Part shown: positions 3,523 to 27,262 of the stretch, piece by piece
Position numbering within the stretch: position 1 is the stretch's first letter
Layout: every line of letters begins with the position of its first letter
Source of the DNA: a virus
Reading direction: 5' to 3' (one strand)
DNA: 28,966 nt
IMG/VR virus record: IMGVR_UViG_3300046724_000183
Location: 1-28,966 of that record
Notes under the pieces: model-generated
Told to the model about the DNA's origin: nothing
What the model saw: the letters and a program-made list of their open reading frames with translations, nothing else
Databases searched by the model: none
Program-made: the position numbers and the translations under genes

Positions 3523-6488
3523 TACTTATCCCCCTTACCCCGTCGCTGCGGCGCCTCTTGCGCTGGCTTATCGCCGCTAAGGATCTCAGGAACGTAATCG
3601 AGCACCTGTAGCGGCAATGGGTTGAGCTGCTGCACGGCAACCTGGCCCCTCGTATTGAACCCGGACGGGATCGGGACGCGAACATCTCCGGTGAATAGTG
3701 GAGTGGCCGGGCTGTTGAACGGCGCTATCGCATGGGTAGGTGCAGGCACCATGTTCTGCCATTCTGGCGCAAGCTGCTGCGGACTCTGCACGGATCCGTC
3801 CGGCTGGTTGCCGCCGATCTCGAATGCCGCGGATTGCTCTATGCGGACCGTCACCTCCGCGACCTTCTTGCGCTGTCCTTGCACGGTTGGCTCGCCAGCA
3901 TCCAGGTAGGTGCTCTGCAATTGAGCCTGGAAGCCCAATCCTACAATGATCGCCGATGCCGGCTTCGCTAGGGTAACGATGCCGTCTGCCGGCACAATGG
4001 TCGGAGGAATAACCTGTCCATCCGCCAGGCCGGTGATTTCAAAACCAATGAGCTGCGGCAGATAAAAGGATGATATCGGCTCGGTCATAGTCCAACTGCC
4101 GCTCAATTGCGTAATCACCTGGTCCGTATTGATCGGGTCGTCGGGCTGGACGCGCACAATCGGCGAGATCATTTGCGCGATCACGGTCTGCGTATCGACG
4201 AAGCTTGTAATTTCCGCCACGCCGTAGCCGGCGCGGATCACGCTGCCAACATCGCCGCTAGAAAAGACTGCTGCCGACGCAACGAATGTGACCGAGTTGT
4301 CCAGTGTAACGGTTGCACTAGCCCCGCTGCCCGTATTCTCAGGATCATTGAACACGAGGTTGGGAAAGACATAGCCGGATCCGGCCGGCGAGAACGCGAT
4401 CGCCGTGATGACCCCGGAGACAATAGTCAGGTTCACGAGGGCTCCGGCGCCTGGGCCCAAGCCGTTGCCGTCGACTAACTCTGCGGTTGTCGCGCTGGAA
4501 TAACCCTGGCCGCCTACCAGGTCGGTAACACCCGTTGGAATGCCGGACCCGACAGCCGAGCTTGCAATCAGGTTGGCGTCCGGAGTCGGCCGCGCCAGCG
4601 TAAACCCGCAATCAACGCACCAACAGTTTTCGACCGTGGGCCACACCCGGTTATCAAGGCGCTCGATGATGAAGCCGGCCGGGGGAATGACGGGTGGCGG
4701 AGGCGGAGCTACGGCGTCATAGGTTACGATAATTGCTCCCTGTGAGCCCGCGCCGACAACGGCAAGCTGAAACGTGAAAACGGAACAGCCGCCGCTACCG
4801 GCGCCGTATAGTCCGGCATTCCCGGCGGTTACGACGCCAGAGTTACCGTTTGATCTATTGCCGCCGCCGCCGCCACCGGCGCCCTGTGTACCTAGCTCTG
4901 TCCCATTAGCACCATTTCCGGCGGCAGTGCCCACGCCGTCTCCGGCCGTTCCCCCAATTCCGCCACCACCACCGTCACCGTCGCCGCCGACTGTTGTGCT
5001 TGGCGGGCTGGCACCTCCTGGGCTGTCTCCGCCGTTAGTGCCGGGACCTAGTGGCCCGGCGCCACCACCGCCGCCAGTGCCGATGTTTCCGTTGCCTGGA
5101 CCGATTGTGTTTTCAACTTCTCCACCTCGCCCTCCGGCATAAATTAGATCTCCGATCGACCCGGTGTTGCCACCGGCGCCGCCTGGAATAGCTGGCGGCG
5201 GTATGAGCTGTATGCGCTGTTGCCAAGCGCCTCCGCCGCTGCCGCCCTTTGCCAGCACGAGCGTTGGAGACAAAAGGAATGTGTCGCCGCCGGATGCCCC
5301 TAGATGGCGCGTTTGATTGTGAATGACGTCGGGCGCGAGGGCCGTGTAAGCAAATCCGCCGGCGCCGATGAAATATGGAACGGTCTGCCCCGGAGTAAGT
5401 GGTACGTTATTAGCCTGGGCATACGCGCCACCACCGCCACCTGCCGCTCCAAAGTCCTGCACGTTACAGCCTGATCCGGCTCCCGCCCCGCCACCCCCGA
5501 TGCAGCCGATGGAATTGTTGTCAGGATCAAAATCGGACGGGACCGTCCAAAAATTCATTAGGTCGGCACCGCCGCCATTCGTTCCGACAAGAGCATCGTC
5601 GTTATAGGTGCTTACGCCGCTCTCGCCTGGACCGTTAGGCCCGGCCGCGCCGCCGCCGCCGGTAGCCGCCTGCACCTCGAGGCAATTTTGGCTCTCTCCG
5701 CCGTTTCCTCCGGACCACAATGTCGACCCGATGCCTTGGGCCGCGGAGCCACCAGGGCTGGCGGGGATATATGAACTAGGTGGATTTGATCCGCCCGAGC
5801 CATTGGCACCGCCGCCCGCCGAGCCGCCCTTTGCTCCGACACTGGCAATACCGAAGCTCGCGCCGTTGAACCATGTGTCTGTGCCGGCATTCCCGTTTTG
5901 AACAGTCCCGCTTGTAATATTCGTGATTGCGGCGCCGCCGGCCCCCACATTGTAGGCGGCCGTGCCGCCTGGCGTAAGCGTGATGTTTGTCTCTTTGGAA
6001 TAGGCGCCCCCGCCTGCCCCGGTTGCGGTCCCGGTTGGTCCGAAAATAGTTGATGACTTTAGGCAGGCGCCGCCCGATCCGCCGGCTCCTATGCACTCCA
6101 CTGAATTGTTTGCGCTGTTCCAATCGCTAGGGACACTCCAGGATCCGGAACCTACCGTAAGATATAGCGGCCCCACTGGCAGGAGAGATTGCGTGCTGAC
6201 ATAGCGAATAATGATAAGACCGTTACCGCCGGCGCCGCTAATCGCCCCTGGCTGGCTGTTCTTACTCGCGGCGCCTCCGCCCCCACCGCCATACAGGCCG
6301 CCAGCGCCACCATGAACAACCACAAGATTGCCGGAGTATCCGCAGCCACCACCACCGCCACCGGCTCCATGGGAGCCGTCAAACTCGGTCCCGGCCATGC
6401 CGGGGCTAGCCGTGCCCGAGAGGCTACCGGCGCCGCCAGCGCCACCGTTCACTAACGGTAAATCGGTGAGAATAATCTGGACCGTCAT
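3522..6488 (-). CDS. Glycine-rich tail protein carrying the apparent C-terminal part of the tail nozzle
   Basis: 988 residues in two parts. Residues 1-592 are glycine-rich and hold two full repeats (about 117-312 and 314-592) plus an initial half repeat (about 33-98). Each full repeat opens with VPSDW/VPSDF, has a GGGAY turn and LTPG, and the last ends GAIIVTY. A Pro linker (594-603) leads to residues 605-988, which begin FIIERLDNRVWPTVENCWC. In related phages, as I recall the family, a motif like this follows directly after the AVERH segment that ends the neighbouring gene. Residues 630-700 carry GxGY beta repeats. The ATG overlaps the stop of the upstream nozzle gene (ATGA). Probably a tail tip/nozzle component with surface-exposed, possibly receptor-binding, glycine-rich domains. 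Confidence 0.85.
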   Translation of the reverse strand: MTVQIILTDLPLVNGGAGGAGSLSGTASPGMAGTEFDGSHGAGGGGGGCGYSGNLVVVHGGAGGLYGGGGGGAASKNSQPGAISGAGGNGLIIIRYVSTQSLLPVGPLYLTVGSGSWSVPSDWNSANNSVECIGAGGSGGACLKSSTIFGPTGTATGAGGGAYSKETNITLTPGGTAAYNVGAGGAAITNITSGTVQNGNAGTDTWFNGASFGIASVGAKGGSAGGGANGSGGSNPPSSYIPASPGGSAAQGIGSTLWSGGNGGESQNCLEVQAATGGGGAAGPNGPGESGVSTYNDDALVGTNGGGADLMNFWTVPSDFDPDNNSIGCIGGGGAGAGSGCNVQDFGAAGGGGGAYAQANNVPLTPGQTVPYFIGAGGFAYTALAPDVIHNQTRHLGASGGDTFLLSPTLVLAKGGSGGGAWQQRIQLIPPPAIPGGAGGNTGSIGDLIYAGGRGGEVENTIGPGNGNIGTGGGGGAGPLGPGTNGGDSPGGASPPSTTVGGDGDGGGGGIGGTAGDGVGTAAGNGANGTELGTQGAGGGGGGNRSNGNSGVVTAGNAGLYGAGSGGCSVFTFQLAVVGAGSQGAIIVTYDAVAPPPPPVIPPAGFIIERLDNRVWPTVENCWCVDCGFTLARPTPDANLIASSAVGSGIPTGVTDLVGGQGYSSATTAELVDGNGLGPGAGALVNLTIVSGVITAIAFSPAGSGYVFPNLVFNDPENTGSGASATVTLDNSVTFVASAAVFSSGDVGSVIRAGYGVAEITSFVDTQTVIAQMISPIVRVQPDDPINTDQVITQLSGSWTMTEPISSFYLPQLIGFEITGLADGQVIPPTIVPADGIVTLAKPASAIIVGLGFQAQLQSTYLDAGEPTVQGQRKKVAEVTVRIEQSAAFEIGGNQPDGSVQSPQQLAPEWQNMVPAPTHAIAPFNSPATPLFTGDVRVPIPSGFNTRGQVAVQQLNPLPLQVLDYVPEILSGDKPAQEAPQRRGKGDK
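4713..6392 (-). repeat. Two and a half glycine-rich protein repeats inside the tail gene
   Basis: Unit A (6195-6392) is a C-terminal half unit, unit B covers 5553-6140 and unit C covers 4713-5549. Units B and C share VPSD(W/F), NNS(V/I)xCIG, GGGAYxxxxN, LTPGxT and an AGG turn. Units A and C share GTE, GAGGGGGG, AGLYG and an ending LIIIRYV or AIIVTY. The likeness is at protein level; the bases differ at many synonymous sites, so the duplication is not recent. Confidence 0.8.
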
Positions 6489-9319
6489 GCTGGCGCGTGC
6501 CTTTCGACGGCAAAATAGACTGCATCCGCCTTTTGCGCCGGAATATCTCCGAGCTCCGGCGTGGCGATTATAGGCTCAACAACCGACGCAACGCTCCAGA
6601 AATGTCCGTTGGTATCATGCCGCGCCCATCCCGCGACTTGCTGCTGCTTTAGAAAGGTAAGAGACAGTAGAACACCGTCATTGCGGATCGTCCAAATCAG
6701 TTTGAACGGCGTTTCGGCCCATGTGTGTTCCCGCAATGTGTAGTCGTCGAATAGGTGCGAGGAAAAGATCGTAAGGTCGATCGGCTCCGACAAAGCGTAG
6801 AGCTGGTAGGGCAGATCGAAGTAATACGAACCCTTCGACGCCACATAGAGAATATCGTAATTGATCTTAATCGGCGGCAGCAACGGAGAGCACCCACTAA
6901 AGGCAAGAGGCTGCGCTACCTGGCTCGATGGCGAGATCGGTTGCACATTGGTTGCGAAGCTGCCGGCGCCGACCAAGAGCCAGGCCGATAGACCGGTCAT
7001 TGTCAGGAGGCCGGCCGGCATGACCACAAAGAACTGAATGCCATTGACCTGTAGCGACCATGGCGTGCCGGTGATTGCATCCGAGTCGATCGTGGGGATC
7101 CTGGCGTCAAAGTTCTTAAAGGCACCAGGTTGACTCATAAAGTAGGTGTCTGGATTGTTCAGCGTATCGCCGAACACCCTGCGTTGCTGGAAGTAGCTCG
7201 GCACACCAGGATAGGTGCCCGTCTCAGGTCCGATTGTCAGGTGCCCGGTGGCTCCAGCGCCGTCCCCGACAATGCTTAGTGTGTCGCCGGTCACATAGCC
7301 GCCGCCGTTGTCGACAACCAAGAGCGCCACGACGCCGCCGCTGACAATCACCGCTTCTATGATGGCGCCGGTTCCTGCCCCGGAGGTGACGGTGACGGTG
7401 GCAAAGGTGTATCCGCTTCCAGGGTTGTCGATGACCGCACCGATTATCTGCCCGCGGGCAAAAGGATCGCGGTGCAGGGGCGGCACTTGTTGAAAGTCCG
7501 CTATGATATTGCTGTCGACAAATTGATTGCCAAAGGCCGTTCCGGCGTACCCAAAGAGAACGCCGACCGGAACGGGGTTTGCGTGCCCGTAAGACACCTC
7601 GGCTTTATAGATATTATAGGTGACTGCGTCGGCGACTGTCGACCAAGTGACTGTGATGGTCCCTGCGGCGGCAGCAATGTCGACATTCGTTTGCAGGCGC
7701 GCGATTGGCCCCGCCACGCTTTCCGTGCCGTCCTTGGCAACCGCGGTTACACAATACGCATAATTGACGGTCGCGGTGCCGGTCGCCCCTGAATGGTCTA
7801 AGGTTGTCGTTGTAGGTGGGACAATGCTGGCAACTGGAATAACAGGCGTAAACGTCCAACTGGTGTCCGAAAGGCGGGCCAAGTCTTGCGGTGGATACTC
7901 CGTTCCGGTGTCCTGATTGACGCAGCAAAGCGTCATTACGTCGGCGGATTGCGTGAATTTGATCCACTCCAGGTCGGCGTCCGAATAGATCGTCGTCAAA
8001 GTGAAAATGCGCGAAACCGTGCCGCCGGAGGTGTAGGCCGGGAAGCCTGTCGTATCGACCGGATTTCCAAAGACGTCTGCCAGGGAAAATGTAGTCCCCG
8101 TGAGCACGGTTATGATGAAGGTTTGATTATTGAGCTGCGTCATTCCGCCGACGCCGGAAATGAACACCCAATCTCCGGTAACGAAACCGTTGTCTCCGGA
8201 GCTCGATATGACGTTGAACAGGGCGCCTAAGCCAGATCCGCTAGTCGATGCTTGGCCGACCGGATTTGACGGGAATGTCGTATAGACGCCAGGATCGCTA
8301 ACAGTGACGGCGGCCGGGGCCATGATGGCCGATTGGAAGGTAGCTCCGGTCCCGCTGCCGCTTGTCGACCCTTGCGTGAAGGCGTTGCTGGCCGGATTGG
8401 CGCTATAGGTTCCACCGACCGTCACCGCGATCGCGTTGATGCCCATGAGGACGGTTATATTGCAGGCCGCGAGGCCGCCGCCCGTGACCGGCTCCTGGAG
8501 AGGAACCGCTGGATTGGTCGTATAGGATCCTGGATCTATGATTGATCCGACGGATGCCAGGACTCCAGTCCCGTCGATAACCCCGTTCACTTGAAAATGG
8601 ACGCCTGTCCCCGTCGTCCCGACAAGAACAACCGGACCTGGTGTGCCGCCGGTGCCTTGGTCTGCGCCTGGAATCAGAGCAACAGCGATTACTTTTGTCG
8701 TCACCACGGCCACGACTGCGGCAACGCTGTGTGTACCGCCGGCAAGCGTGATCGTATCGCCAGGCGCGTACCCTGGGGAAGATCCTAATTGCGATACATT
8801 GCCAGAACTATTGATGGCGCACGAAAGCAGCGTCGTATCGGTAACGGAGAGCACGGCGGGCGTAGTAAAGACACCGCCGGCGAGCGTGATGGTGTCTCCT
8901 GGAGCATAGGCTGCGAGGATCGAAGTATTGACCGGCGTGGCCGATACCCCGCTACTCGAGCCGCCTGTCGTTACGACGCCTGGATTAGCCTGAGAGACAT
9001 CGACGATGGCAATCGGATTCTCTGTGACTTGGGCCCCATTAGAGATCACGCGCATATAGAAATTGCCGAACTCGAGGATCAATCCCTGATTGATGCTGAA
9101 TTGGAACGGAATAAGCCGCGGAGGGAATGGACGGCCAAATTGCGCGGACCAACCGACGAAGCGCGTACCAGGCCGCGAGTAGGCCCCGCCTTTGTACGAT
9201 GCAAACATATTCCGCATCGTCGACGCTGCTGTGTGCAGCCGCGCGAGATCTTGGCGCCCGAAGAGATTAGGAGCGACTTCGCCCGTAGTGAACGCCGGCT
9301 GCAATACGGGAGTTGCCAC
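6485..9319 (-). CDS. Tail nozzle / tail tubular protein B-like, N-terminal and middle part
   Basis: 944 residues from a GTG start at 9319, with GGGAG nine bases upstream. The N-terminus (LQPAFTTGEVAPNLFGRQDL, then YSRPGTRFV and LIPFQFS) is the hallmark opening of the T7 gp12-like nozzle family, which seals the distal end of the tail tube. Beta-rich insertions follow: two copies of YAPGDTITLAGG (about residues 130-230), several STSGSGxGA units, a segment resembling an FCCH-type domain (LNNQTFIITVLTGTTFSL), a fibronectin-like stretch near 500-580 and a GSGY unit near 620-690. The last part (RRVFGDTLNNPDTYFMSQPG, then HTWAETPFKLIWTIRNDGVLLSLTF) is again nozzle core. It ends abruptly at AVERHAPA, where I expect the core to continue; that continuation seems to lie in the next gene. 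Confidence 0.9.
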   Translation of the reverse strand: MATPVLQPAFTTGEVAPNLFGRQDLARLHTAASTMRNMFASYKGGAYSRPGTRFVGWSAQFGRPFPPRLIPFQFSINQGLILEFGNFYMRVISNGAQVTENPIAIVDVSQANPGVVTTGGSSSGVSATPVNTSILAAYAPGDTITLAGGVFTTPAVLSVTDTTLLSCAINSSGNVSQLGSSPGYAPGDTITLAGGTHSVAAVVAVVTTKVIAVALIPGADQGTGGTPGPVVLVGTTGTGVHFQVNGVIDGTGVLASVGSIIDPGSYTTNPAVPLQEPVTGGGLAACNITVLMGINAIAVTVGGTYSANPASNAFTQGSTSGSGTGATFQSAIMAPAAVTVSDPGVYTTFPSNPVGQASTSGSGLGALFNVISSSGDNGFVTGDWVFISGVGGMTQLNNQTFIITVLTGTTFSLADVFGNPVDTTGFPAYTSGGTVSRIFTLTTIYSDADLEWIKFTQSADVMTLCCVNQDTGTEYPPQDLARLSDTSWTFTPVIPVASIVPPTTTTLDHSGATGTATVNYAYCVTAVAKDGTESVAGPIARLQTNVDIAAAAGTITVTWSTVADAVTYNIYKAEVSYGHANPVPVGVLFGYAGTAFGNQFVDSNIIADFQQVPPLHRDPFARGQIIGAVIDNPGSGYTFATVTVTSGAGTGAIIEAVIVSGGVVALLVVDNGGGYVTGDTLSIVGDGAGATGHLTIGPETGTYPGVPSYFQQRRVFGDTLNNPDTYFMSQPGAFKNFDARIPTIDSDAITGTPWSLQVNGIQFFVVMPAGLLTMTGLSAWLLVGAGSFATNVQPISPSSQVAQPLAFSGCSPLLPPIKINYDILYVASKGSYYFDLPYQLYALSEPIDLTIFSSHLFDDYTLREHTWAETPFKLIWTIRNDGVLLSLTFLKQQQVAGWARHDTNGHFWSVASVVEPIIATPELGDIPAQKADAVYFAVERHAPA

Positions 9320-9829: not shown

Positions 9830-10726
9830 TCAGTAGGCGGTCCCATCTGAGAATCCGCACGAGTCCCAAGACCCGCCGCCCCAAGGAACACCTGGTCCAG
9901 CTCCGTCGCCCCATCCCCCGCTCCCCCATCCCCCCGATCCACCAGTTCTCCTAGCCGCCATCCAATCTACGCTTAGGTTGGAGCTATAGGTCCCTTCATT
10001 CCCGTCCCTGATACGCGCCTGCTCGATCTTGGCCTTGGCGACCGCGATGTTCTGCGCCCGCATGGTGAGGCCAAACTTCTTGTCGGCCGATAGAGGTAGC
10101 GCGATCTCGCTCGCCAGATAGGAGACGAATGCGGCGCGGAACAGCGGATCCCATACGCTCGGGTAGAGCATAAGGGACGTGTAGATCAGGCAAGCATTTT
10201 GCACGTTGGTCAGAATGACCGTCCTGCTTACCGGGCTAACCCCCTGCACCTCCCACGTCACAGAGCCCGCCGGCGGTGGGTAGTTTGGATCGGTAGCGAT
10301 CACGAAGCGCGCCGGCCGAATGCGCTGGCCTGTTAGCTGCGGATTGCCAAGCCCCGTCATGGTCGGCGAGGCCGGGCTAGGCGGCGTAATATTGCCCGAC
10401 GGGATACCGGGATTTTGAAATGGCTGATTCCACGGGATAAACCGCGCCTTCATGCAATCGACAGGATACTCGTATTCATACACCCACGGCACTGGCACAA
10501 GTGTTCCCACATCCGGCGTGTTGCCGGTAGCGTCCGCCAGGAGATTGAGCGGCGCGGTCTTGCGCGCGAAGTCCCAATTGGCGCCGCGAAGTAATTGCAT
10601 CAAACATTGCTGATAGGCGCGTAGGAGCACCTGGGCCGGCCGCGACCCGTCCTCGATATCGCCAAGCAGGTAATCGAGACCGGAGGCGTCGATCGCTTGC
10701 TGTGCTACGTCGGTCGGGAGGTTCAT
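9830..10726 (-). CDS. Tubular A-like head-tail adaptor, third tandem copy (long)
   Basis: 298 residues, the longest of three adjacent paralogs. Shared family features: a helical N-terminus (AQQAIDASGLDYLLGDIEDGS), then LLRGANWDFARK, then WVYEYEYPVDCMKAR, and a helix-rich segment WDPLFRAAFVSYLASEIALPL. Proteins of this type form the ring that joins portal and nozzle in T7-like phages. This copy has an extra insertion (about 125-170, Pro/Gly-rich) and a Gly/Trp-rich C-terminal tail (GGSGGWGSGGWG). Its ATG overlaps the stop of the second copy (ATGA). Downstream is the HNH insertion. It is the copy nearest the nozzle gene, which suggests it contacts the nozzle; this is inference. Confidence 0.85.
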   Translation of the reverse strand: MNLPTDVAQQAIDASGLDYLLGDIEDGSRPAQVLLRAYQQCLMQLLRGANWDFARKTAPLNLLADATGNTPDVGTLVPVPWVYEYEYPVDCMKARFIPWNQPFQNPGIPSGNITPPSPASPTMTGLGNPQLTGQRIRPARFVIATDPNYPPPAGSVTWEVQGVSPVSRTVILTNVQNACLIYTSLMLYPSVWDPLFRAAFVSYLASEIALPLSADKKFGLTMRAQNIAVAKAKIEQARIRDGNEGTYSSNLSVDWMAARRTGGSGGWGSGGWGDGAGPGVPWGGGSWDSCGFSDGTAY

Positions 10727-11328
10727 GCCTGCTGCCTTTCAGCCAACGTCGTTTCTACCTGCTCGGCCTGTGCCTCGAGCTTCACCGCGTCCATGGTCGT
10801 AAGCAACGACGCCAGGCGACGTCCTAGCGCGGCAACAAAGGCTTCCACAAAATCAACCGGCATATCGGTAGGATTTGTGACCTGTCCGACGTAGGTGATA
10901 ACGGCGTTCCCCACCATGGACAGGATAACACGCTGATTGCCGTCATTGGCGACCGCGAAGAGATACGGCTGCGGACTGAAATTCGGAATGAAGATCGGCT
11001 GCGGCTTGACCGCACGCACCTTGATGCAATCGCTTGGGTAGGTGTATTCGAACAACCAAGGCAGCGGCGGATAGCTGACTTCGTCCCATACGGTTGGCGG
11101 GACATAGCCCCCGACGGGCGCTGATTTGATGAGATTGCCGACTAGATCGCGCTGCGCGAACGGCCAATCGCCCTGCCGCAACAGTTGGTCGCGCGTCTGC
11201 CCGTAGATATCAAGCGCATTCTTGGCCGCCCTGGACCCCTCGAACAGCGATCCAACGCGGTTCTTATAGCCAATCTGCGCCAGCGCCGCATTGACGATAT
11301 CGGCGGGAGATTGAAGGCTGGCAACCAT
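10723..11328 (-). CDS. Tubular A-like head-tail adaptor, second tandem copy
   Basis: 201 residues with the family layout: PADIVNAALAQIGYKNRVGSL, a GSRAAKNALDIYGQTRDQLLRQGDWPFAQR stretch whose core is LLRxxxWxFA, WLFEYTYPSDCIKVR, then a C-terminal helical part (VEAFVAALGRRLASLLTT). ATG follows the stop of the first copy directly (TAAATG), with GAGG upstream. Expected role: subunit of the adaptor or gatekeeper ring under the portal. It matches the other two copies in motifs but not closely in overall sequence, so the duplication is old. Confidence 0.85.
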   Translation of the reverse strand: MVASLQSPADIVNAALAQIGYKNRVGSLFEGSRAAKNALDIYGQTRDQLLRQGDWPFAQRDLVGNLIKSAPVGGYVPPTVWDEVSYPPLPWLFEYTYPSDCIKVRAVKPQPIFIPNFSPQPYLFAVANDGNQRVILSMVGNAVITYVGQVTNPTDMPVDFVEAFVAALGRRLASLLTTMDAVKLEAQAEQVETTLAERQQA

Positions 11329-11898
11329 TTAGTCCTCTCTCGCTTCACCGATCGTCTCAAACGCTCCGCCGGACTCGAGATAGCTTTGGGCCGCATCCGG
11401 CTTGCCTGCAACCGCCATGGACAATTCGCTGGCGAGTAGTCGTACCACAGCCTCGCGGAAGAGCGAATCCCAAGTGTTCTCGTTCGGATTATTGTTGTAG
11501 GTCGCGTAGGCACTCGCCAGATTTGACCACACTACCCGTTGCTGCTGGCCGCCGACTACGGCATTCGCAATGCTCCAATTGAGCGGCAGTGGATTGTTGA
11601 CGTCACCTAGATTGTTAGGATGAACCTGCCACACCTCGATCCCGTTGGTCGGGTAGAGATATTCGAATGTCCATGGGAACGGCGGAGTGTTGCCGCTTAG
11701 GGTTAGCGCGATCGTGTTGCGCGCCATGTCCCAGGCAAATTGCCGTGCAACAGTCTGCACGCACGGAACGTATAGTTTGGAAAGGGCTACCCCGGCTGTA
11801 GAGCTGTCGAAGCTTGGCGCCTGCCCTGTGACAAGCGGTTGGTTGTCGCCTATGAGCTGGATAGCCTGGTTGGCGATATCATTTGATGTGATCGGCAT
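11329..11898 (-). CDS. Tubular A-like head-tail adaptor, first tandem copy
   Basis: 189 residues with the same plan as the next two genes: ITSNDIANQAIQLIGDNQ at the start, VARQFAWDMARNTIALTL (counterpart of LLRxxxWDFARxxxxL), WTFEYLYPTNGIEVWQ, and WDSLFREAVVRLLASELSMAVAG near the end. The ATG follows the stop of the signal-anchored gene 11899-12462 with no gap. Probably another part of the tail tube adaptor; whether all three are in the virion cannot be told from sequence. Confidence 0.83.
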   Translation of the reverse strand: MPITSNDIANQAIQLIGDNQPLVTGQAPSFDSSTAGVALSKLYVPCVQTVARQFAWDMARNTIALTLSGNTPPFPWTFEYLYPTNGIEVWQVHPNNLGDVNNPLPLNWSIANAVVGGQQQRVVWSNLASAYATYNNNPNENTWDSLFREAVVRLLASELSMAVAGKPDAAQSYLESGGAFETIGEARED

Positions 11899-19081: not shown

Positions 19082-19488
19082 TACTTCTCTCGTTTAACCT
19101 GTGGCATTTTCGGTCTTTTGAACCGCGGATCGTGCTCGTCCTGCATTAGAAAAACGCCCTCGCGGGAAAGAGCAGTCCAACTTTGAAATAGGCGCATTCC
19201 GAACGAGCGAGCGCCCAAGTGGAACCAACTTGCCTCCGGCTGTGGAAACCCGTTGGGTCCAACGCCAAAGCGATCATCGAAAGTGCCTGCTTGTTGAAGG
19301 ATTCCCCACATCTCACTCCGCCCAATTGGGTCGGAAAAAACCTGTTGCCAAAACCGCTGAACATCGCGGTGACGGAGCGCCGCCTTAGTAAGTCGTTTGC
19401 GATGAACGACAGGATCGGCAGCATCAACAGGGCCCGTATCAGGCTGTGGCTCGTCGGCTGTGTCAGGAGGGTCCTCATCGCCATTCAT
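19081..19488 (-). CDS. Bbp19-like phage protein
   Basis: 135 residues. The core DVQRFWQQVFSDPIGRSEMW, GILQQAGTFDDRF and FHLGARSFGMRLFQSW follows the Bbp19 pattern: (V/L)FSxPxGRxxLxxLLxxxGxF, then GxRxxGLxLL. These small proteins occur between portal and scaffold genes of BPP-1-like phages; their function is not established to my knowledge. The N-terminal 30 residues are acidic and Pro-rich. ATG overlaps the stop of the upstream gene (ATGA) and its own stop overlaps the scaffold start. Confidence 0.85.
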   Translation of the reverse strand: MNGDEDPPDTADEPQPDTGPVDAADPVVHRKRLTKAALRHRDVQRFWQQVFSDPIGRSEMWGILQQAGTFDDRFGVGPNGFPQPEASWFHLGARSFGMRLFQSWTALSREGVFLMQDEHDPRFKRPKMPQVKREK

Positions 19489-19979
19489 TGAACCATGCTC
19501 TCGGCTGGCAAGATGATGCCGCCGGGCGATCGATTGTATCCGGATGGCCTGGTTTCACGGTGCGGCGGCACACCAGGCTTCGGGAGGATGGGACCAATTA
19601 TGTTGGTTTTCTTGGTTTGCAGCTCTTCTACCTTGCGGTAGGCGGCGCGGAGATTGTCGGCAAGCTTGACGAAAAGTGGGTGTATCTGACCTGGCGCTAC
19701 CTTTATCCGGACGCCTTCGGCATTCTTTACGCCGCGGAGCCAATCGCCCGCCCGTTTATGGGCGGATGCCATGTAAAGACCGATTTTGAGCCATCGGGCG
19801 TCGCCACCACGCCAAAAAGCAGCCTGGCGACAGGCGCCTTCGACTAGTCTGAGATTGTTTCGGAGATCGCTATAGGCTTTGCCCTTCCTGGCGGAAACGG
19901 CAAGAACGTCGCAATTCTGCGCCGCAAGGCGCAAATTGCTCTTGAGGCAATCGAAGATTTCGGCTTCCGACAGTGCCAT
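19485..19979 (-). CDS. Hypothetical phage protein upstream of scaffold
   Basis: 164 residues from ATG 19979; a TTG one codon earlier is less likely. N-terminal 115 residues are helical and basic (ALSEAEIFDCLKSNLRLAAQN, AYSDLRNNLRLVEGACRQAA, FVKLADNLRAAYRKVEELQ). The C-terminus is Pro/Gly-rich and ends PGGIILPAESMVQ. No clear ribosome site. Family not recognised. It is the first minus-strand gene after the plus-strand cassette, so its transcription needs either read-through of more than 3 kb antisense to the cassette or its own promoter in the short gap upstream. Confidence 0.78.
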   Translation of the reverse strand: MALSEAEIFDCLKSNLRLAAQNCDVLAVSARKGKAYSDLRNNLRLVEGACRQAAFWRGGDARWLKIGLYMASAHKRAGDWLRGVKNAEGVRIKVAPGQIHPLFVKLADNLRAAYRKVEELQTKKTNIIGPILPKPGVPPHRETRPSGYNRSPGGIILPAESMVQ

Positions 19980-20010
19980 CAACGATTAGTGCTATGGCCC
20001 CGATATACAC

Positions 20011-20025
20011 GCAACATGAGGTTGC
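20011..20025. promoter_or_regulatory. Hyphenated palindrome, candidate operator
   Basis: GCAAC-ATGAG-GTTGC is a perfect five-base inverted repeat with a five-base spacer. It overlaps the candidate -35 box of the cassette promoter by four bases. The first gene of the cassette encodes a small helix-turn-helix protein, so self-regulation here is possible. The repeat is short and could be chance. Confidence 0.35.
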
Positions 20026-20050
20026 AGTCATTGAGAATTAAAGGCATAAT
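20022..20050 (+). promoter_or_regulatory. Candidate sigma-70 promoter of the plus-strand cassette
   Basis: TTGCAG (20022-20027) and CATAAT (20045-20050) are separated by 17 bases, the optimal spacing. The -10 box matches 5 of 6 and the -35 box 3 of 6. It lies 25 bases before the ATG of the helix-turn-helix gene, in an AT-richer stretch. The strand switch here makes a separate promoter necessary unless transcription enters from elsewhere. Confidence 0.5.
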
Positions 20051-20074
20051 AAGTTAGTGAAAGGGTACAAAATC

Positions 20075-20290
20075 ATGCCACCGGAAGAGACCTGGTTATC
20101 CCGTAAGGCCGCCGCGATGTATCTGACGCGGATCGGCTGCCCCATGACCCACCGCACGCTCGAGAAGGTTGCCAGCAAGAACAACGCCGGCGGCGGGCCT
20201 CCCTTTGTGCGCGCCGGCTGGAAGGCGGTCCGCTACCGCCAGGCTGATCTCGATGCTTGGGCGAAAAAGCGCATGGTGAGGGTAGATTAG
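20075..20290 (+). CDS. Small helix-turn-helix (excisionase/AlpA-like) DNA-binding protein
   Basis: 71 residues from ATG 20075, supported by GAAAGGG nine bases upstream; a GTG at 20057 is in frame but has no ribosome site. WLSRKAAAMYLTRIGCPMTHRTLEKVA resembles the helix-turn-helix of excisionase/AlpA-type proteins, and AVRYRQADLDAWAKKRM matches their usual ending (YRxxDLDAW). It is the first gene of the plus-strand cassette and its stop overlaps the next start (TAGTG). It could regulate the cassette or, in a prophage, assist excision; no integrase is in the window, so regulation is the more economical view. Confidence 0.85.
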   Translation: MPPEETWLSRKAAAMYLTRIGCPMTHRTLEKVASKNNAGGGPPFVRAGWKAVRYRQADLDAWAKKRMVRVD

Positions 20291-21429
20291 TGGCAACCAT
20301 CGGCTTGTCTATGATCGTCAAGAATGAGGAAAAACTCATTCTCCGATGCCTCAAAAGCGTGGCCGCGCTGGCCGATTACGTCCTGATTTCTGACACCGGA
20401 TCGACCGACAGCACGAAAGATATCATCCGGGGGTTCCTGGCCGACCACGATATCGAGGGTAAGATCGTCGACGACCCCTGGATAGACTTCGCCAGTAACC
20501 GTAACCGGGCGCTCTTGGGCCTCAACCAAACCAAGGTTGATTATGCCTTTATGATCGACGCCGACGATGTTCTGGAGCTCGCCGACGGCTTCGACCTGGC
20601 CTCATTCAAGGCCAGAATGACCCGTGATATATACGATATCCCGGTGGTACACGCAGGCGTCCGCCATACCCGACCGCAACTCTTCCGCAACAATGGAAAA
20701 TACCGTTGGATAGGCGTTTTGCACGAATACCTTGAGGCACCACCGACAGCTACGCGCGCAACCGAGCTTGGATTGACGATAAAGGCCAGCATTGAGGGCT
20801 CTCGCAACGCAGATCCGCAAAAATTCCAAAAAGATGCCGAGATTCTAGAAAAAGCCTTAAAAACTGAAAAAACCCCTTATTTGCTGGCTAGATACCAGTT
20901 TTACTTGGCCCAAAGCTATCGGGACTGCATGAATTACGAAAAGGCCCTACAAAACTACCTAATTTGTTCAAAAATGGGGTTTTGGGACCAACAAGTGTAC
21001 GTTTCTCTGTTTGAGGCTATCCGTTGTTGCACAAGACTTGGCGGAGAGTTTGAATTTAACACCGCCTGTGCGGCTTTCATTCGTGCCCAGGAGACGTTGC
21101 CGTCCCGCGCCGAAGCCTGTCACGCCATGGCATTTCTCTGCCGAAAACTAGGCAGAAACAAGCAAGGTATGGATTCCGCGTGCCGCGGCATGGATCTGGC
21201 TATACCGCAGGGGCTCTTTATCGAGCCCTGGATCTACCATTACGGCGTGCGCGACGAGTTTGCCGTCAACGCCTATTGGTCCGGACACTATCTTGAAAGC
21301 CTGCAAGCCAACCTGAAATTACTGGCCGGGAAAAATACGCCGACAGACATGATCGAGCGCCTGGCGAACAATGCCATGGCTTCGCTAGTAAAACTCGAGC
21401 CCCGTCTTAACCTCGTATATTCGGATTAG
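20290..21429 (+). CDS. Family 2 glycosyltransferase with TPR-like C-terminus
   Basis: 379 residues from GTG 20290, which overlaps the previous stop and has GAGGG seven bases upstream; a longer ATG start at 20257 lies inside the previous gene. GT-A fold signatures: IGLSMIVKNEE, LISDTGSTDST (35-42) binding the sugar nucleotide, and IDADD (89-93), the metal-binding DxD. GVLHEYLE follows, as in related enzymes. Residues 200-370 are helical with TPR-like pairs (LARYQFYLAQSYRDCMNYEKAL). Bases 20810-21060 are clearly more AT-rich than neighbouring genes, a sign of different origin. The sugar and acceptor are unknown; likely targets are host LPS or capsule, or a virion protein. Confidence 0.9.
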   Translation: MATIGLSMIVKNEEKLILRCLKSVAALADYVLISDTGSTDSTKDIIRGFLADHDIEGKIVDDPWIDFASNRNRALLGLNQTKVDYAFMIDADDVLELADGFDLASFKARMTRDIYDIPVVHAGVRHTRPQLFRNNGKYRWIGVLHEYLEAPPTATRATELGLTIKASIEGSRNADPQKFQKDAEILEKALKTEKTPYLLARYQFYLAQSYRDCMNYEKALQNYLICSKMGFWDQQVYVSLFEAIRCCTRLGGEFEFNTACAAFIRAQETLPSRAEACHAMAFLCRKLGRNKQGMDSACRGMDLAIPQGLFIEPWIYHYGVRDEFAVNAYWSGHYLESLQANLKLLAGKNTPTDMIERLANNAMASLVKLEPRLNLVYSD

Positions 21430-21432
21430 CCC

Positions 21433-22980
21433 ATGCACGAAACTTCTAAGGCGGTGCAACGCCGCCTGCACGACTCCAACTTCATTACCCGCTACTTCCG
21501 CGGCAACGGGATCGATATCGGCGCCGGCAATGACCCGCTAGGCCAGTATATCGAGCTATTTCCGCTCATGGAGAGCTGCCTGTCCTACGATCGCGAGGAC
21601 GGCGACGCCCAAGACATGAAGGGCTGCAAGGAAGGACAATTCGACTTTGTCCATGCCTCCCACTGTCTCGAGGATCTTCACGACCCGCTAACGGGCCTGC
21701 GAAACTGGCTCAAGATACTAAAGCCTGGCGGGCACCTGATCGTGACCGTGCCTGACGAGGATATGTACGAGCAGGGGGTTTTCCCGAGCACCTTCAATTC
21801 CGATCACAAGGGCACGTTCACGGTTTTCAAGCCTAATTCCTGGAGCCCCAACTCCCACAACCTCCTATCGATGATCCTTCTGTTGGGAGATGTCGCCGAC
21901 CTCATCAAGATTGAGCAATTAACCGGCACCCACCGCTACGGCCTGGAGCGCCAGGACCAGACGCGGACGCCTATCGGCGAGTCGGCGATCGAGTTTGTCA
22001 TCCGCAAGAGGGGCAAGAGCGAAGCGAAGCTTGGCGATCGCCGCCTGACCGCGACGCAGGTTAAGCTATCCGAAAGACGTAAGATCGCCCTGCACCGGCC
22101 AGGAGCTATTGGCGATATCATTATGACGCTGGCGCTGGTCCCGTTGCTCAAGCAAAAGCACCCGGACCACGACATTCATTATTTCTGCAACGCTACGCTT
22201 GGGACAAGCCTGCAACGCCTGATGAAACAGGCCGGAATCGACGGCGGCTTTCCCGCGGAAGCCCTGGAGCAGAGGCAACGAGACTACGAAAAGGTCATCA
22301 ATCTGATCGGCTATCCGCTGCAAGATGGCTACCCGTACAAGCCCATGAGAAAGCATTTGATCCAGTATTTTGCAGCCGAAATGGGGATCGATCTTGACTA
22401 CATTCCTCACCTCTTACTGCAACCTAGCCAAAATCTTCCAGAAGTGCTGAAACTACCCTCACGTTATGCGACCATCCATCCGCAGGCCGGGTGGTCGGCT
22501 TATAAGAATTGGCCGACGGAACGATGGGAAGAGGTGGTCGCGAAGCGTCCGGACATTTCATTTTATCAGATCGGCAGCGCGACAGACAGAAAGGTTCTCA
22601 ATGCTGATCCTACATTCATGGGAATGCCCCTGAATGTCTCGATCGACCTAATGGCGGGGGCAAGCCTTCATGTCGGGGTCGACTCGTGGACAAACCATCT
22701 GACCAACATCGCATGGGGAGTGCGCGGCTTCACGCCCGCCATTATTCTGTGGGGATCGACCCAGGCTACGGCCGCAGGCTACCCGCGCAATACAAATATA
22801 AGCCTAGGGCTCGAGTGTCAGCCTTGCTTCCGCGAGGATCCTAAAATCTCTCGGATGCCGCTCGGCCCGTGTATCAATCCGCCCGGACAGGTTTACGAAG
22901 AGCCGAAGCACGCCTGCATGGCCGGGATCACGATCGACAACGTCCTCTTGGCGATAGAAAAGGTGTGGCCCAATGGCTGA
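21433..22980 (+). CDS. Methyltransferase-family 9 glycosyltransferase fusion protein
   Basis: 515 residues with two enzymes in one chain. Residues 1-195: class I SAM-dependent methyltransferase, with GIDIGAGNDPLG (26-37, motif I), FDFVHASHCLEDL (70-82), and LKPGGHLIVTVPDED (96-110). Residues 215-515: ADP-heptose:LPS heptosyltransferase-like GT9, with RPGAIGDIIMTLALVPLL (222-239), HPQAGWSAYKNWPTERW (349-365) and LHVGVDSWTNHL (412-423). Four cysteines (462, 465, 480, 495) in a CxxC...C...C array are common in one GT9 branch. It starts three bases after the family 2 gene and overlaps the next gene by eight bases. The two enzymes probably modify one glycan in sequence. Substrate unknown. Confidence 0.9.
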   Translation: MHETSKAVQRRLHDSNFITRYFRGNGIDIGAGNDPLGQYIELFPLMESCLSYDREDGDAQDMKGCKEGQFDFVHASHCLEDLHDPLTGLRNWLKILKPGGHLIVTVPDEDMYEQGVFPSTFNSDHKGTFTVFKPNSWSPNSHNLLSMILLLGDVADLIKIEQLTGTHRYGLERQDQTRTPIGESAIEFVIRKRGKSEAKLGDRRLTATQVKLSERRKIALHRPGAIGDIIMTLALVPLLKQKHPDHDIHYFCNATLGTSLQRLMKQAGIDGGFPAEALEQRQRDYEKVINLIGYPLQDGYPYKPMRKHLIQYFAAEMGIDLDYIPHLLLQPSQNLPEVLKLPSRYATIHPQAGWSAYKNWPTERWEEVVAKRPDISFYQIGSATDRKVLNADPTFMGMPLNVSIDLMAGASLHVGVDSWTNHLTNIAWGVRGFTPAIILWGSTQATAAGYPRNTNISLGLECQPCFREDPKISRMPLGPCINPPGQVYEEPKHACMAGITIDNVLLAIEKVWPNG

Positions 22981-23173
22981 CACATGCGGCAATTGTAAAT
23001 TCTATATCCGCGAGCCGCTACGTCCTGGCTACGGAGAGTGCCATGCCGGACGTCCTACGCTTGGTTACATTCAGAGACCGGAGGGTATTATGAATGTGGC
23101 CGGATGGCCGCCGACACAGGACAATAAGTGGTGCGGCGAGCACAAAGCTAAGGTAAATGGGCAAGCTCAATGA
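22973..23173 (+). CDS. Four-cysteine mini-protein, plus strand
   Basis: 66 residues. Cysteines at 5, 8, 23 and 54 (CGNCKFY, GECH, KWCGEH) suggest a small zinc- or iron-sulfur-binding fold. WPPTQDNKWCGEHK is a recurrent ending in small phage and bacterial proteins of this type; their function is unknown to me. Ribosome site AAGGTG seven bases before ATG, inside the end of the fusion gene. Its last seven bases overlap the end of a minus-strand gene that also encodes a four-cysteine protein. Confidence 0.85.
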   Translation: MADTCGNCKFYIREPLRPGYGECHAGRPTLGYIQRPEGIMNVAGWPPTQDNKWCGEHKAKVNGQAQ

Positions 23174-23334
23174 GCCTCAAATAGCTTGCACCAGGCGCCC
23201 GGCATTATCTGTCCCTTGACCAGCTCACACCTATTGTAGAGTGACTTGAAATGCTTGCACTTGTCGCAGCGTTCGCTCTTCATCGCCGCGACCGGGGTGT
23301 AGCCGACCTCAGTCTTTTCTTTTTTCTCAATCAT
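23167..23334 (-). CDS. Four-cysteine mini-protein (HiPIP-like pattern), minus strand
   Basis: 55 residues from ATG 23334; an ATG at 23370 would add 12 residues. The shorter form is preferred because its ATG overlaps the stop of the 48-residue ORF (ATGA). Cysteines 23, 26, 36 and 49 (RCDKCKHF, RCELVKG, AWCKLFEAH) fit small phage proteins often compared with high-potential iron-sulfur proteins; whether this one binds a cluster is not known. It is the last minus-strand gene before the plus-strand cassette, and its stop overlaps the cassette end. Confidence 0.82.
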   Translation of the reverse strand: MIEKKEKTEVGYTPVAAMKSERCDKCKHFKSLYNRCELVKGQIMPGAWCKLFEAH

Positions 23335-23477
23335 ATCGGATACACAAACCGAAACGCCGCCCAATGACATGATCCTGGCGCCAAATAGTGACGCCAGTAG
23401 GCCATCTCGCGCATTGCAAAATAGGCCGGAGGATTACAGGCCAAGGTCGCGAGAGCAAATGCGCGCATGGCAAACAT
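23331..23477 (-). CDS. Hidden 48-residue ORF after the portal gene
   Basis: ATG 23477 begins two bases after the portal stop and has AGGTGG six bases upstream, one of the better ribosome sites in the window. The frame stays open to TGA 23331, which overlaps the next ATG (ATGA). The product (MFAMRAFALATLACNPPAYF, then AMREMAYWRHYLAPGSCHWA) has one mildly hydrophobic helix, two cysteines and several aromatics. No family recognised. The case rests on ribosome site, fit into an otherwise empty gap, and coupling at both ends. Without it the four-cysteine gene would have a 109-base leader, unusual in this operon. Confidence 0.55.
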   Translation of the reverse strand: MFAMRAFALATLACNPPAYFAMREMAYWRHYLAPGSCHWAAFRFVYPI

Positions 23478-23479
23478 CG

Positions 23480-25321
23480 TCAGCCACCTAAGCCACCGCC
23501 GCCGGCTCCGCCTCCACCTAGCAGTTGCGCCAGGGCGCTGTTGTTATCTCCGACATTCGTGTCCGAGAGTGTCTTGGCAGCATTGACCGCGGCCATCGCC
23601 TGTCCAGGCACCTGCGCCTGTTGCTGTGCGTTCTGGCGGATCCTGTCGTGCTGTACCACTTCCTTGTCGGTGAACAGGCAATCGGTCGGGAAATTGGTCA
23701 CTTCTGCGAAACGCCGTCCCGACTTGTCCAGGTCGACGATACGCAGCGGATCGGGAACGCCGGCTGCCTTGGCCGCGGACGACAGTCCGCCCATAGTGCC
23801 GAAAAAATCCTTCATGCCGACGGCTTCGGCGGATTGCTGCGCCAGGCGCATGATCGAGGTGTATTTGATCTTAAGCGGGACGCCCTTGAGCGAGTTGGGC
23901 ATGGGCTTAAGGATTTTGCGCCTGGTCATAATGTCGAGCAGCCGTTCAAAGAACGGATTGCCAAATTCGTTCTCGAATAGCGTGATGAAGGGCCCGAGTT
24001 GCTGCAAGCGCTCCAGGTCGCGCTTCGTGAGCTCCAGCTCGTTGCGTGGCTGCACACCTTCCATGCGCGTGATCGCCATGAACACGTCGACGAAGAGGCA
24101 GCGCTCTATGCGTGCGGAGACTTTGTCTATGTCGGCGGTGATCCCGGCCAGCCATTGCGCCTGTGGTTCAAACAGGGGCCAGAATCCTTTTTTGCCGCCC
24201 TCCGTGCTCATGTAGGTAATCATCCCTGAGATGATCGACGATGGCTCGTTCTTTAATTCGACGTTGGCGCCCATTGGCGGGCGCACACCCTTATCGATAA
24301 ATTCGGCCTTGCGGCGGGTCTCGAGCTGGATCTGCTTGTTGTCGCCAAGCGCGTCCATGCACGGCGAGCGCCCGTAAGGGTCATTCGACACCGTGCTCCA
24401 GCGCGCGACCATGAACGGCTTTTTGTGGAAGCCGCGTTTGCTCAACGGTTGCGCTGTCCTGATCCCTTTGAGCCAGTAGAGCTCGCGGTAAGCGAACATG
24501 CCGGGGACGATCGTCACCTCTTCGTCGCCGCCCTGCTGCCTCGCCACGGCAAAATTCGGCTCGATGCAATGGGCGACGACAAATTCGTTGTCGAGGGATG
24601 CTCCGCCCTGCGCCCACATCTTTTTTACTTCGGCCGGGCAATTGGAAAGCTGAAACATATCGACGATCTCTTTTACCGTGAAGGTGAACTCACGATAGAG
24701 ATCGGTGACGTCTAGCCGCCCGCCCGACGCCAAGTAATACTCACCGGCGCACGGCAGGTAGAGCCGAATGATATCCTCGTAATCTTCATAGACGATCGGC
24801 GGGGCTGTTCCGAAAACGACAACGTCTTGGAACGCCTGCGCCATAGTCTGATAGAAATTACTTTGGGCAAGAACTTGGTACGCACGCTTCTGCGTATCCT
24901 CGAGCCAAGCCTTTCCTTCATTGTCCAACTCCAGCCAGGGCAGACCAATTTCGATCGCAAACCAAGGGCGCGACGGCGAAGTCATGCCGGTCCACAATCC
25001 GCTTGAGCAGATATTGACGGCGAGCGTCGGCGTGCAGTCTATGATCGCGTCATTGATTGGATTGCCGCGCGACATGCGATTGGCGACTACTAGCCAGTGA
25101 TAGCGCCGCGGCAAAAAAAACTCCGCCAGCCTGGCCCAATGCGCCCACCACGAGTAGCGCCAGTTGCGGAGCATCCCCAATCTCTGCTCGCAATGGAGAA
25201 AGAACGTGCTCCACGAGCTGTTCATCTTGTCGAGCTTGTCAGGCGCGGTTAGAGGCTGCTTCGATAGCGTCGAAGCCCCCATGTCCTCATAGGCTGCCGT
25301 GGCTGTTGCTTGCTCCGCCAT
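23480..25321 (-). CDS. Portal (head-tail connector) protein, T7/podovirus type
   Basis: 613 residues. The N-terminal helical part (RLGMLRNWRYSWWAHWARLAEFFLPRR), then IIDCTPTLAVNICSSGLWTGMTSPSRPWF, PYGRSPCMDALGDNKQIQ and MRLAQQSAEAVG fit the podovirus head-tail connector family (Head-tail_con). Twelve copies form the ring at one capsid vertex through which DNA is packaged and ejected. The C-terminus is Gln/Ala-rich and ends in a run of glycines, probably flexible. ATG follows the upstream stop directly (TAGATG), with AGGG as ribosome site. Position between terminase and scaffold is as expected. Confidence 0.93.
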   Translation of the reverse strand: MAEQATATAAYEDMGASTLSKQPLTAPDKLDKMNSSWSTFFLHCEQRLGMLRNWRYSWWAHWARLAEFFLPRRYHWLVVANRMSRGNPINDAIIDCTPTLAVNICSSGLWTGMTSPSRPWFAIEIGLPWLELDNEGKAWLEDTQKRAYQVLAQSNFYQTMAQAFQDVVVFGTAPPIVYEDYEDIIRLYLPCAGEYYLASGGRLDVTDLYREFTFTVKEIVDMFQLSNCPAEVKKMWAQGGASLDNEFVVAHCIEPNFAVARQQGGDEEVTIVPGMFAYRELYWLKGIRTAQPLSKRGFHKKPFMVARWSTVSNDPYGRSPCMDALGDNKQIQLETRRKAEFIDKGVRPPMGANVELKNEPSSIISGMITYMSTEGGKKGFWPLFEPQAQWLAGITADIDKVSARIERCLFVDVFMAITRMEGVQPRNELELTKRDLERLQQLGPFITLFENEFGNPFFERLLDIMTRRKILKPMPNSLKGVPLKIKYTSIMRLAQQSAEAVGMKDFFGTMGGLSSAAKAAGVPDPLRIVDLDKSGRRFAEVTNFPTDCLFTDKEVVQHDRIRQNAQQQAQVPGQAMAAVNAAKTLSDTNVGDNNSALAQLLGGGGAGGGGLGG

Positions 25322-25828: not shown

Positions 25829-27262
<1,434 letters not shown>

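Follow-up and report, generated by a model that had tools for sequence, protein, structure and literature searches.

A putative virion-glycosylation cassette with a GT2-TPR protein and a methyltransferase-GT9 fusion in an uncultured epsilon15-type podovirus

Many phages carry collagen-like fibres, and hydroxyproline is usually lacking in bacteria. An enzyme acting on collagen-like repeats has been described in C. difficile: SgtA, in which a GT2 domain (residues 1–260) is followed by TPR repeats (262–358), puts beta-O-linked N-acetylglucosamine (beta-O-GlcNAc) on Thr of the GPT repeats of BclA3, and the sgtA gene is located directly upstream of bclA3 (PMC7157674). The GmaR protein adds GlcNAc to flagellin (PMC9638930). 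Virion glycosylation (capsid, tail tube) by phage glycosyltransferases is established for the mycobacteriophages Che8, Corndog and Myrna (as cited in PMC12363180 and PMC12619734). Here, a gene cassette at positions 20075–23173 of the uncultured viral record IMGVR_UViG_3300046724_000183 was analysed; the whole stretch of 28,966 bases is called the window below, and related records are designated by L numbers. The phage was assigned to the epsilon15-type podoviruses by its portal protein (23480–25321, minus strand; PF12236 match of 8e-106), which is 33–34% identical to those of epsilon15 and similar phages. The core of the cassette consists of genes for a GT2 glycosyltransferase with TPR repeats and for a methyltransferase-GT9 fusion, and there is in our estimate an even chance that it is a virion-glycosylation module by which the phage decorates its own collagen-like fibre with a methylated glycan.

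The GT2-TPR protein and the methyltransferase-GT9 fusion

The GT2 gene (20290–21429, plus strand) encodes a protein of 379 amino acids (aa), which was identified as a GT-A glycosyltransferase with C-terminal TPR repeats using Pfam, PDB profile searches, AlphaFold2 and Foldseek. The PF00535 match (1.1e-10) was above the curated cut-off, and an alignment of 28 sequences revealed invariant D90, A91, D92, H145 and E146, including a DxD-type metal site. The GT2 family profile matched GmaR (8.6e-22), SunS (1.1e-15) and TPR proteins, including the TPR domain of OGT, in the PDB; the TPR-matching positions were about 178–304. The AlphaFold2 model (pLDDT 94, pTM 0.89) showed a GT-A domain and then TPR-like helices (171–368), and its best solved matches in Foldseek were SunS (4.1e-16) and ThuS (8.3e-15), peptide S-glycosyltransferases that modify Cys of bacteriocins. 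The score against the SunS equivalog TIGR04195 was 37.5 bits, below the 350-bit cut-off. Judged by its model, the GT2 is structurally among TPR-bearing peptide or protein glycosyltransferases and is not a typical lipopolysaccharide (LPS) enzyme. It is proposed to be the initiating protein O-glycosyltransferase.

The fusion gene (21433–22980, plus strand; 515 aa) was characterized by Pfam, alignment, modelling and Foldseek. The protein contains an S-adenosylmethionine (SAM) methyltransferase domain (about 1–195), a low-confidence linker (201–213) and a GT9 domain with the GT-B fold (about 215–515), and its model has a pLDDT of 88. Matches to PF13489 (2.3e-11) and PF08241 for the methyltransferase and to PF01075 for the GT9 domain (1.1e-7; 31.9 bits vs a gathering threshold of 22) were above the cut-offs. 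In the fusion alignment, G26, D28, I29, G30 and G32 of the glycine-rich SAM motif are invariant, as in class I methyltransferases. The identities of the GT2 and of the fusion, read from the sequence alone in a preliminary description of the window, are thus borne out by Pfam matches above curated cut-offs. The Foldseek search with the GT9 half returned WaaF as the top match (5e-11), and TibC (9e-11) and a Veillonella GT9 were also among the closest. All 16 aligned phage GT9 domains have RPGAIGD, GWSxYKxW and four cysteines in common; the invariant cysteines of the window protein (C462, C465, C480 and C495) are spaced as C-x2-C-x14-C-x14-C. The iron finger of the protein heptosyltransferase TibC is formed by Cys-339/342/358/370 with the spacing C-x2-C-x15-C-x11-C (PMC4358343). 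The four cysteines of the phage GT9 suggest a candidate metal finger and are not proof of membership in the TibC family. PDB profile searches with the GT9 half gave no match to TibC, and no match came from a PDB sequence search in which the fusion protein alone was the query.

An assembly artefact, which the preliminary description had named as one outcome that would overturn its reading, was rejected as the origin of the fusion: in six diverged relatives (L004–L009), 58–69% identical over the full length, the fusion is uninterrupted in a single reading frame, with its site and domain order unchanged. L002 and L003 show protein-level identity to the window over the whole fusion. In L010, the fusion gene is split by a frameshift at about 4247–4253; this is one case and could be a sequencing error. 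The fusion had also been called uncommon, and this holds: as a separate methyltransferase-GT9 protein it was found only in the phage lineage of the window. A scan of cellular genome contigs revealed relatives of the methyltransferase only (42–60% identical; Rhodospirillales, Caballeronia, Belnapia and others) and no fusion, and profiles detected no phage-type GT9 or GT2-TPR open reading frame (ORF) within about 6 kb of these genes. A search of 50,697 deposited phage records with L112, the one member of the phage GT9 branch used for this test, returned no match.

The GT9 fold, which is WaaF/WaaC-like, makes modification of LPS the main rival explanation. The cassette would then alter the LPS core or another surface glycan of the host, with the GT2 and GT9 adding sugars and the methyltransferase capping them, and would serve superinfection exclusion or lysogenic conversion by keeping other phages from adsorbing. 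Apart from the PF01075 match and the top rank of WaaF, the neighbourhoods of the cellular methyltransferase relatives speak for this: that in L062 (6001–9614) stands beside GmhA-, HddC- and GmhB-like GDP-heptose genes, which hint at heptose as the methyl target, and that in L079 stands beside a GT9 gene. The phage has an epsilon15-type portal, and epsilon15 is known to change the host O-antigen. However, the GT2 bears TPR repeats and has its matches among peptide glycosyltransferases, and the GT9 half is far under the LPS heptosyltransferase I and II equivalog cut-offs (TIGR02193, 21.3 vs 185.3 bits; TIGR02195, 24.4 vs 134.6 bits). No flippase or membrane glycosyltransferase family was matched by the cassette ORFs in Pfam and PHROG, including the gtrABC-type O-antigen conversion set (GtrA flippase, GtrB bactoprenol glucosyltransferase and membrane GtrC). 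Modification of a host glycan would also leave the association with Thr-rich collagen genes, described below, unexplained, and we consider it unlikely, though by no means negligible.

The fold relatives bear on one more explanation as well, namely that the enzymes hypermodify bases of the phage DNA with glycans and so evade restriction. DNA can be a substrate of phage glycosyltransferases (Pyle et al. 2024, as cited in PMC12619734). The relatives found here are peptide glycosyltransferases and heptosyltransferases, and the searches with window proteins, the window being a fragment, revealed no gene for base modification; this explanation appears very improbable.

Recurrence of the enzyme set and its association with collagen-like fibres

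The preliminary description had suggested a search for the fusion and cassette in other phages. The cassette is kept in close relatives, and the enzyme set recurs in unrelated phages. Single proteins of 900–931 aa with the order methyltransferase, GT2, (TPR), GT9 were found in the unrelated contigs L012, L015, L109, L112 and L113. All four parts are supported by Pfam in L109 and L112, the methyltransferase, GT2 and TPR in L012 and L113, and the methyltransferase and GT2 in L015; the GT9 part of L012, L113 and L015 was recognised by BLAST only (42–54% similarity to the window GT9). In L114 and L137, GT9 and GT2 genes are adjacent or near-adjacent. The presence of methyltransferase, GT2 and GT9 in single polypeptides argues for a common pathway of the three activities. 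A separate observation was made in L109, where a 399-aa protein (3735–4931) with a weak GT9 match followed by a methyltransferase, the reverse of the window fusion order, is encoded a few kb from the four-domain protein.

The proposed acceptor is a collagen-like fibre protein of 477 aa (25829–27262, minus strand), recognised by PF01391 (4.9e-29), tail fibre PHROGs and triplet composition. It contains 90 Gly-X-Y triplets (in runs of at least five), with Thr at Y in 79%; across bacteria, Thr at Y amounts to 31.6% (PMC8968730). The share of Thr at Y was 51–78% in the fibres of the cassette clade and 40–87% in the GT2/GT9 phages. L010, with its frameshifted fusion, has the collagen genes with the lowest share in the cassette clade (51%).

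Collagen genes (PF01391) were found in 34 of the 50 GT2-family records and in 4 of 29 controls (p 5e-6); the controls, portal relatives without the cassette or methyltransferase-only records, had been fetched for other reasons and are non-random. When the comparison was limited to records of 8–100 kb, the counts were 27/43 and 4/26 (p 1.5e-4). Outside the window lineage, such genes are present in seven of nine phages with GT2 and GT9. In large genomes, the distance between the GT2 and collagen genes was below that of random placement (p 0.024 at first; combined p 0.007 over 20 records, after three more large phages were added). One record of 354 kb has the two 0.4 kb apart. In Tunturi_5 (309 kb), a cultured soil phage whose GT2 (gp35) is the nearest homologue in an isolate, 5.5 kb separate the GT2 gene from the single collagen gene. 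Of the podovirus contigs, all four that bear the cassette and cover the region upstream of the portal have the fibre, and none of the 14 without the cassette has it there.

These distributions also bear on whether the enzymes glycosylate another virion protein, such as the capsid, the tail or the glycine-rich 988-aa protein. The mycobacteriophage precedent, the protein-modifying type of the GT2 and the position of the cassette among structural genes are all in keeping with such an acceptor. However, the cassette-less podovirus relatives share the capsid, the portal and several other structural proteins, and among the genes examined the collagen fibre alone tracks the cassette; the Thr content, too, peaks in the fibre (23.7%) among the structural proteins counted. 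We therefore regard another virion protein as an improbable acceptor.

What favours the collagen-like fibre as the acceptor is that unrelated phages with such fibres have the same enzymes, in some cases joined into a single very large protein. The preliminary description had named two possible targets, surface glycans (with superinfection exclusion) and a virion protein, for instance the fibre. The structural class of the GT2, the SgtA precedent, the co-occurrence with collagen genes and the absence of a flippase or membrane glycosyltransferase match favour the fibre, and superinfection exclusion is less supported. We infer the acceptor, the donor sugars, the order of steps and the benefit as follows. 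The TPR domain would hold the fibre chain, and, in the host cytoplasm, the GT2 would attach the first sugar to Thr at Y of the Gly-X-Thr repeats. The GT9 half of the fusion would then extend the glycan with a second sugar, perhaps heptose, a guess based on the GT9 fold and on the heptose genes beside the cellular methyltransferase relatives, and the fused methyltransferase would cap the added sugar. The benefit may be a stiffer or protected fibre with a more stable triple helix, since a sugar on Thr can take the hydration role of hydroxyproline, and the exposed surface might be varied.

Several observations weigh against glycosylation of the fibre. One is the resemblance of the GT9 half to LPS heptosyltransferases. 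The fibre gene lies at some distance from the cassette (4.8 kb, opposite strand), and GT2 and collagen genes are only modestly closer to each other than expected at random. In the podoviruses, the co-occurrence of fibre and cassette could reflect a single evolutionary gain. No collagen gene is seen in 16 of the 50 GT2 records, many of which are fragments. Bacterial collagens for which no glycosylation is known can also be rich in Thr at Y. The records share ancestry and are fragmentary, and the controls are non-random, so the tests support rather than prove the link.

A wider proposal, which we put forward tentatively and hold to be somewhat improbable as a whole, is that of a dedicated, horizontally spread phage system in which a methylated glycan on Thr of collagen-like fibres replaces hydroxyproline as the triple-helix stabiliser. 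It would exist in two forms, either as separate GT2-TPR and methyltransferase-GT9 genes or as a single methyltransferase-GT2-TPR-GT9 synthase.

Organization and history of the cassette locus

Four plus-strand ORFs are located between the minus-strand portal gene and a minus-strand gene at 19485–19982, and the coordinates and coupling given for them in the preliminary description proved right. In the distant relatives L042, L044, L045 and L048, the gap between the portal and the next gene is 50–90 bp; the two genes are thus adjacent there, and in the window the plus-strand block splits a structural operon. The ORFs at 20075–23173 are tightly coupled by overlaps or a 3-nt gap. The first (20075–20290, plus strand; 71 aa) encodes a small HTH_17/AlpA-like putative DNA-binding protein, assigned from an alignment of 11 homologues, HTH_17 and synteny. 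The helix-turn-helix (HTH) identity proposed earlier is backed by weak HTH_17 matches below the cut-off (0.039 for the L005 copy and 7e-4 for the L038 copy). The GTG start of the GT2 gene overlaps the HTH stop by 1 nt, and the last ORF (22973–23173, plus strand), which overlaps the fusion gene by 8 nt, encodes a small four-cysteine protein of 66 aa.

The leader (20024–20074, plus strand) contains TTGCAG-N17-CATAAT, which weakly resembles a promoter, and, ahead of the HTH ATG, the ribosome-binding site AAAGGG. As to the promoter-like site noted previously, the closest relatives (L131, L005 and L010) have kept TTGC-N19-CATAA as well as AAAGGG; the leader fits 8 of 12 consensus positions by eye, but a promoter scan of it gave nothing above chance. 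The AT-rich stretch noted with it exists (40.5% GC at 20800–20999 vs about 55%) and is located inside the GT2 gene.

In L034 and L036–L039, the space between the portal and the following gene contains an HTH homologue (43–49% identical) in the opposite orientation and no glycosyltransferases, and no GT2- or GT9-like ORF was detected in the cassette-less relatives with profiles of these families. In the closer clade (L003–L010), the HTH, GT2 and fusion are all present wherever the contig covers them. The HTH alone or an empty site in distant relatives points to the GT2 and fusion genes as a later insertion; by gene order, the HTH is older at the site, and it may regulate the cassette. The four-cysteine gene is an optional, inconsistent member with homologues confined to the window lineage, L019 and L007. 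In the four-gene cassette described initially, the HTH thus predates the GT2 and fusion genes. SunS-like S-glycosylation of the small cysteine protein was set aside: the gene is missing in most relatives and the Cys pattern looks metal-binding. Values of dN/dS relative to the window (fusion, 0.09–0.17; GT2, 0.16–0.24; capsid, 0.04–0.05) are indicative only, with synonymous sites near saturation; to that extent, the cassette genes are under purifying selection, yet faster-evolving than the capsid.

Small extra genes differ among the relatives at the cassette site. An inserted gene between the HTH and GT2 of L007 encodes a small protein (6383–6631) weakly similar to sigma-70 region 4 (0.002). 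A second small four-cysteine protein (23167–23370, minus strand) is kept between the portal and the cassette in cassette-bearing relatives and resembles HiPIP-type iron-sulfur proteins, with matches below curated cut-offs (NCBIfam iron oxidase Iro, 6e-4, for the L009 copy; PF01355, 0.018, for the L004 copy). Elsewhere in the window (9830–11898, minus strand), three consecutive genes match PHROG 394 (tail protein), which suggests tandem duplication of one tail gene.

Comparison with described systems

No description of glycosylated phage collagen-like fibres was found in the open-access literature, with most subscription journals outside the scope of the search. For the stabilisation and sugar content of such fibres, the cassette supplies named genes and a testable substrate, and it advises caution towards the default annotation of phage glycosyltransferases as LPS- or DNA-modifying. 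As proposed, the system is a variant of phage protein glycosylation with a GT9 branch unmatched among deposited phages. It resembles Che8, Corndog and Myrna by role: there phage glycosyltransferases decorate the virion, and here they are proposed to do so. The acceptor is the capsid or tail tube in those phages and the proposed collagen-like fibre here, and the window adds a GT9 with a fused methyltransferase.

WaaF, WaaC and TibC share the GT-B fold and the conserved GD and YKxW motifs with the window GT9, which differs from WaaF and WaaC in scoring far below the LPS heptosyltransferase equivalog cut-offs. The four cysteines have a spacing similar to that of the iron finger in TibC; the N-terminal domain of TibC is a beta-barrel, whereas the window fusion has a methyltransferase, and no sequence match appeared in the PDB profile searches. 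In SunS, ThuS and GmaR, as in the window GT2, a GT-A domain is followed by helical or TPR repeats, and their acceptor is a peptide or protein. However, this is a bacteriocin Cys for SunS and ThuS, which are 15–20% identical to the window GT2, and flagellin for GmaR.

The SgtA-BclA3 system belongs to a bacterial spore rather than a virion and is without a methyltransferase-GT9 fusion, and the activity of SgtA is proven, whereas we infer that of the window GT2. By the published domain plan, SgtA and the window GT2 are alike in having a GT2 domain with C-terminal TPR repeats and in size (358 vs 379 aa), and for both, the gene region also encodes a collagen-like surface protein rich in Thr.

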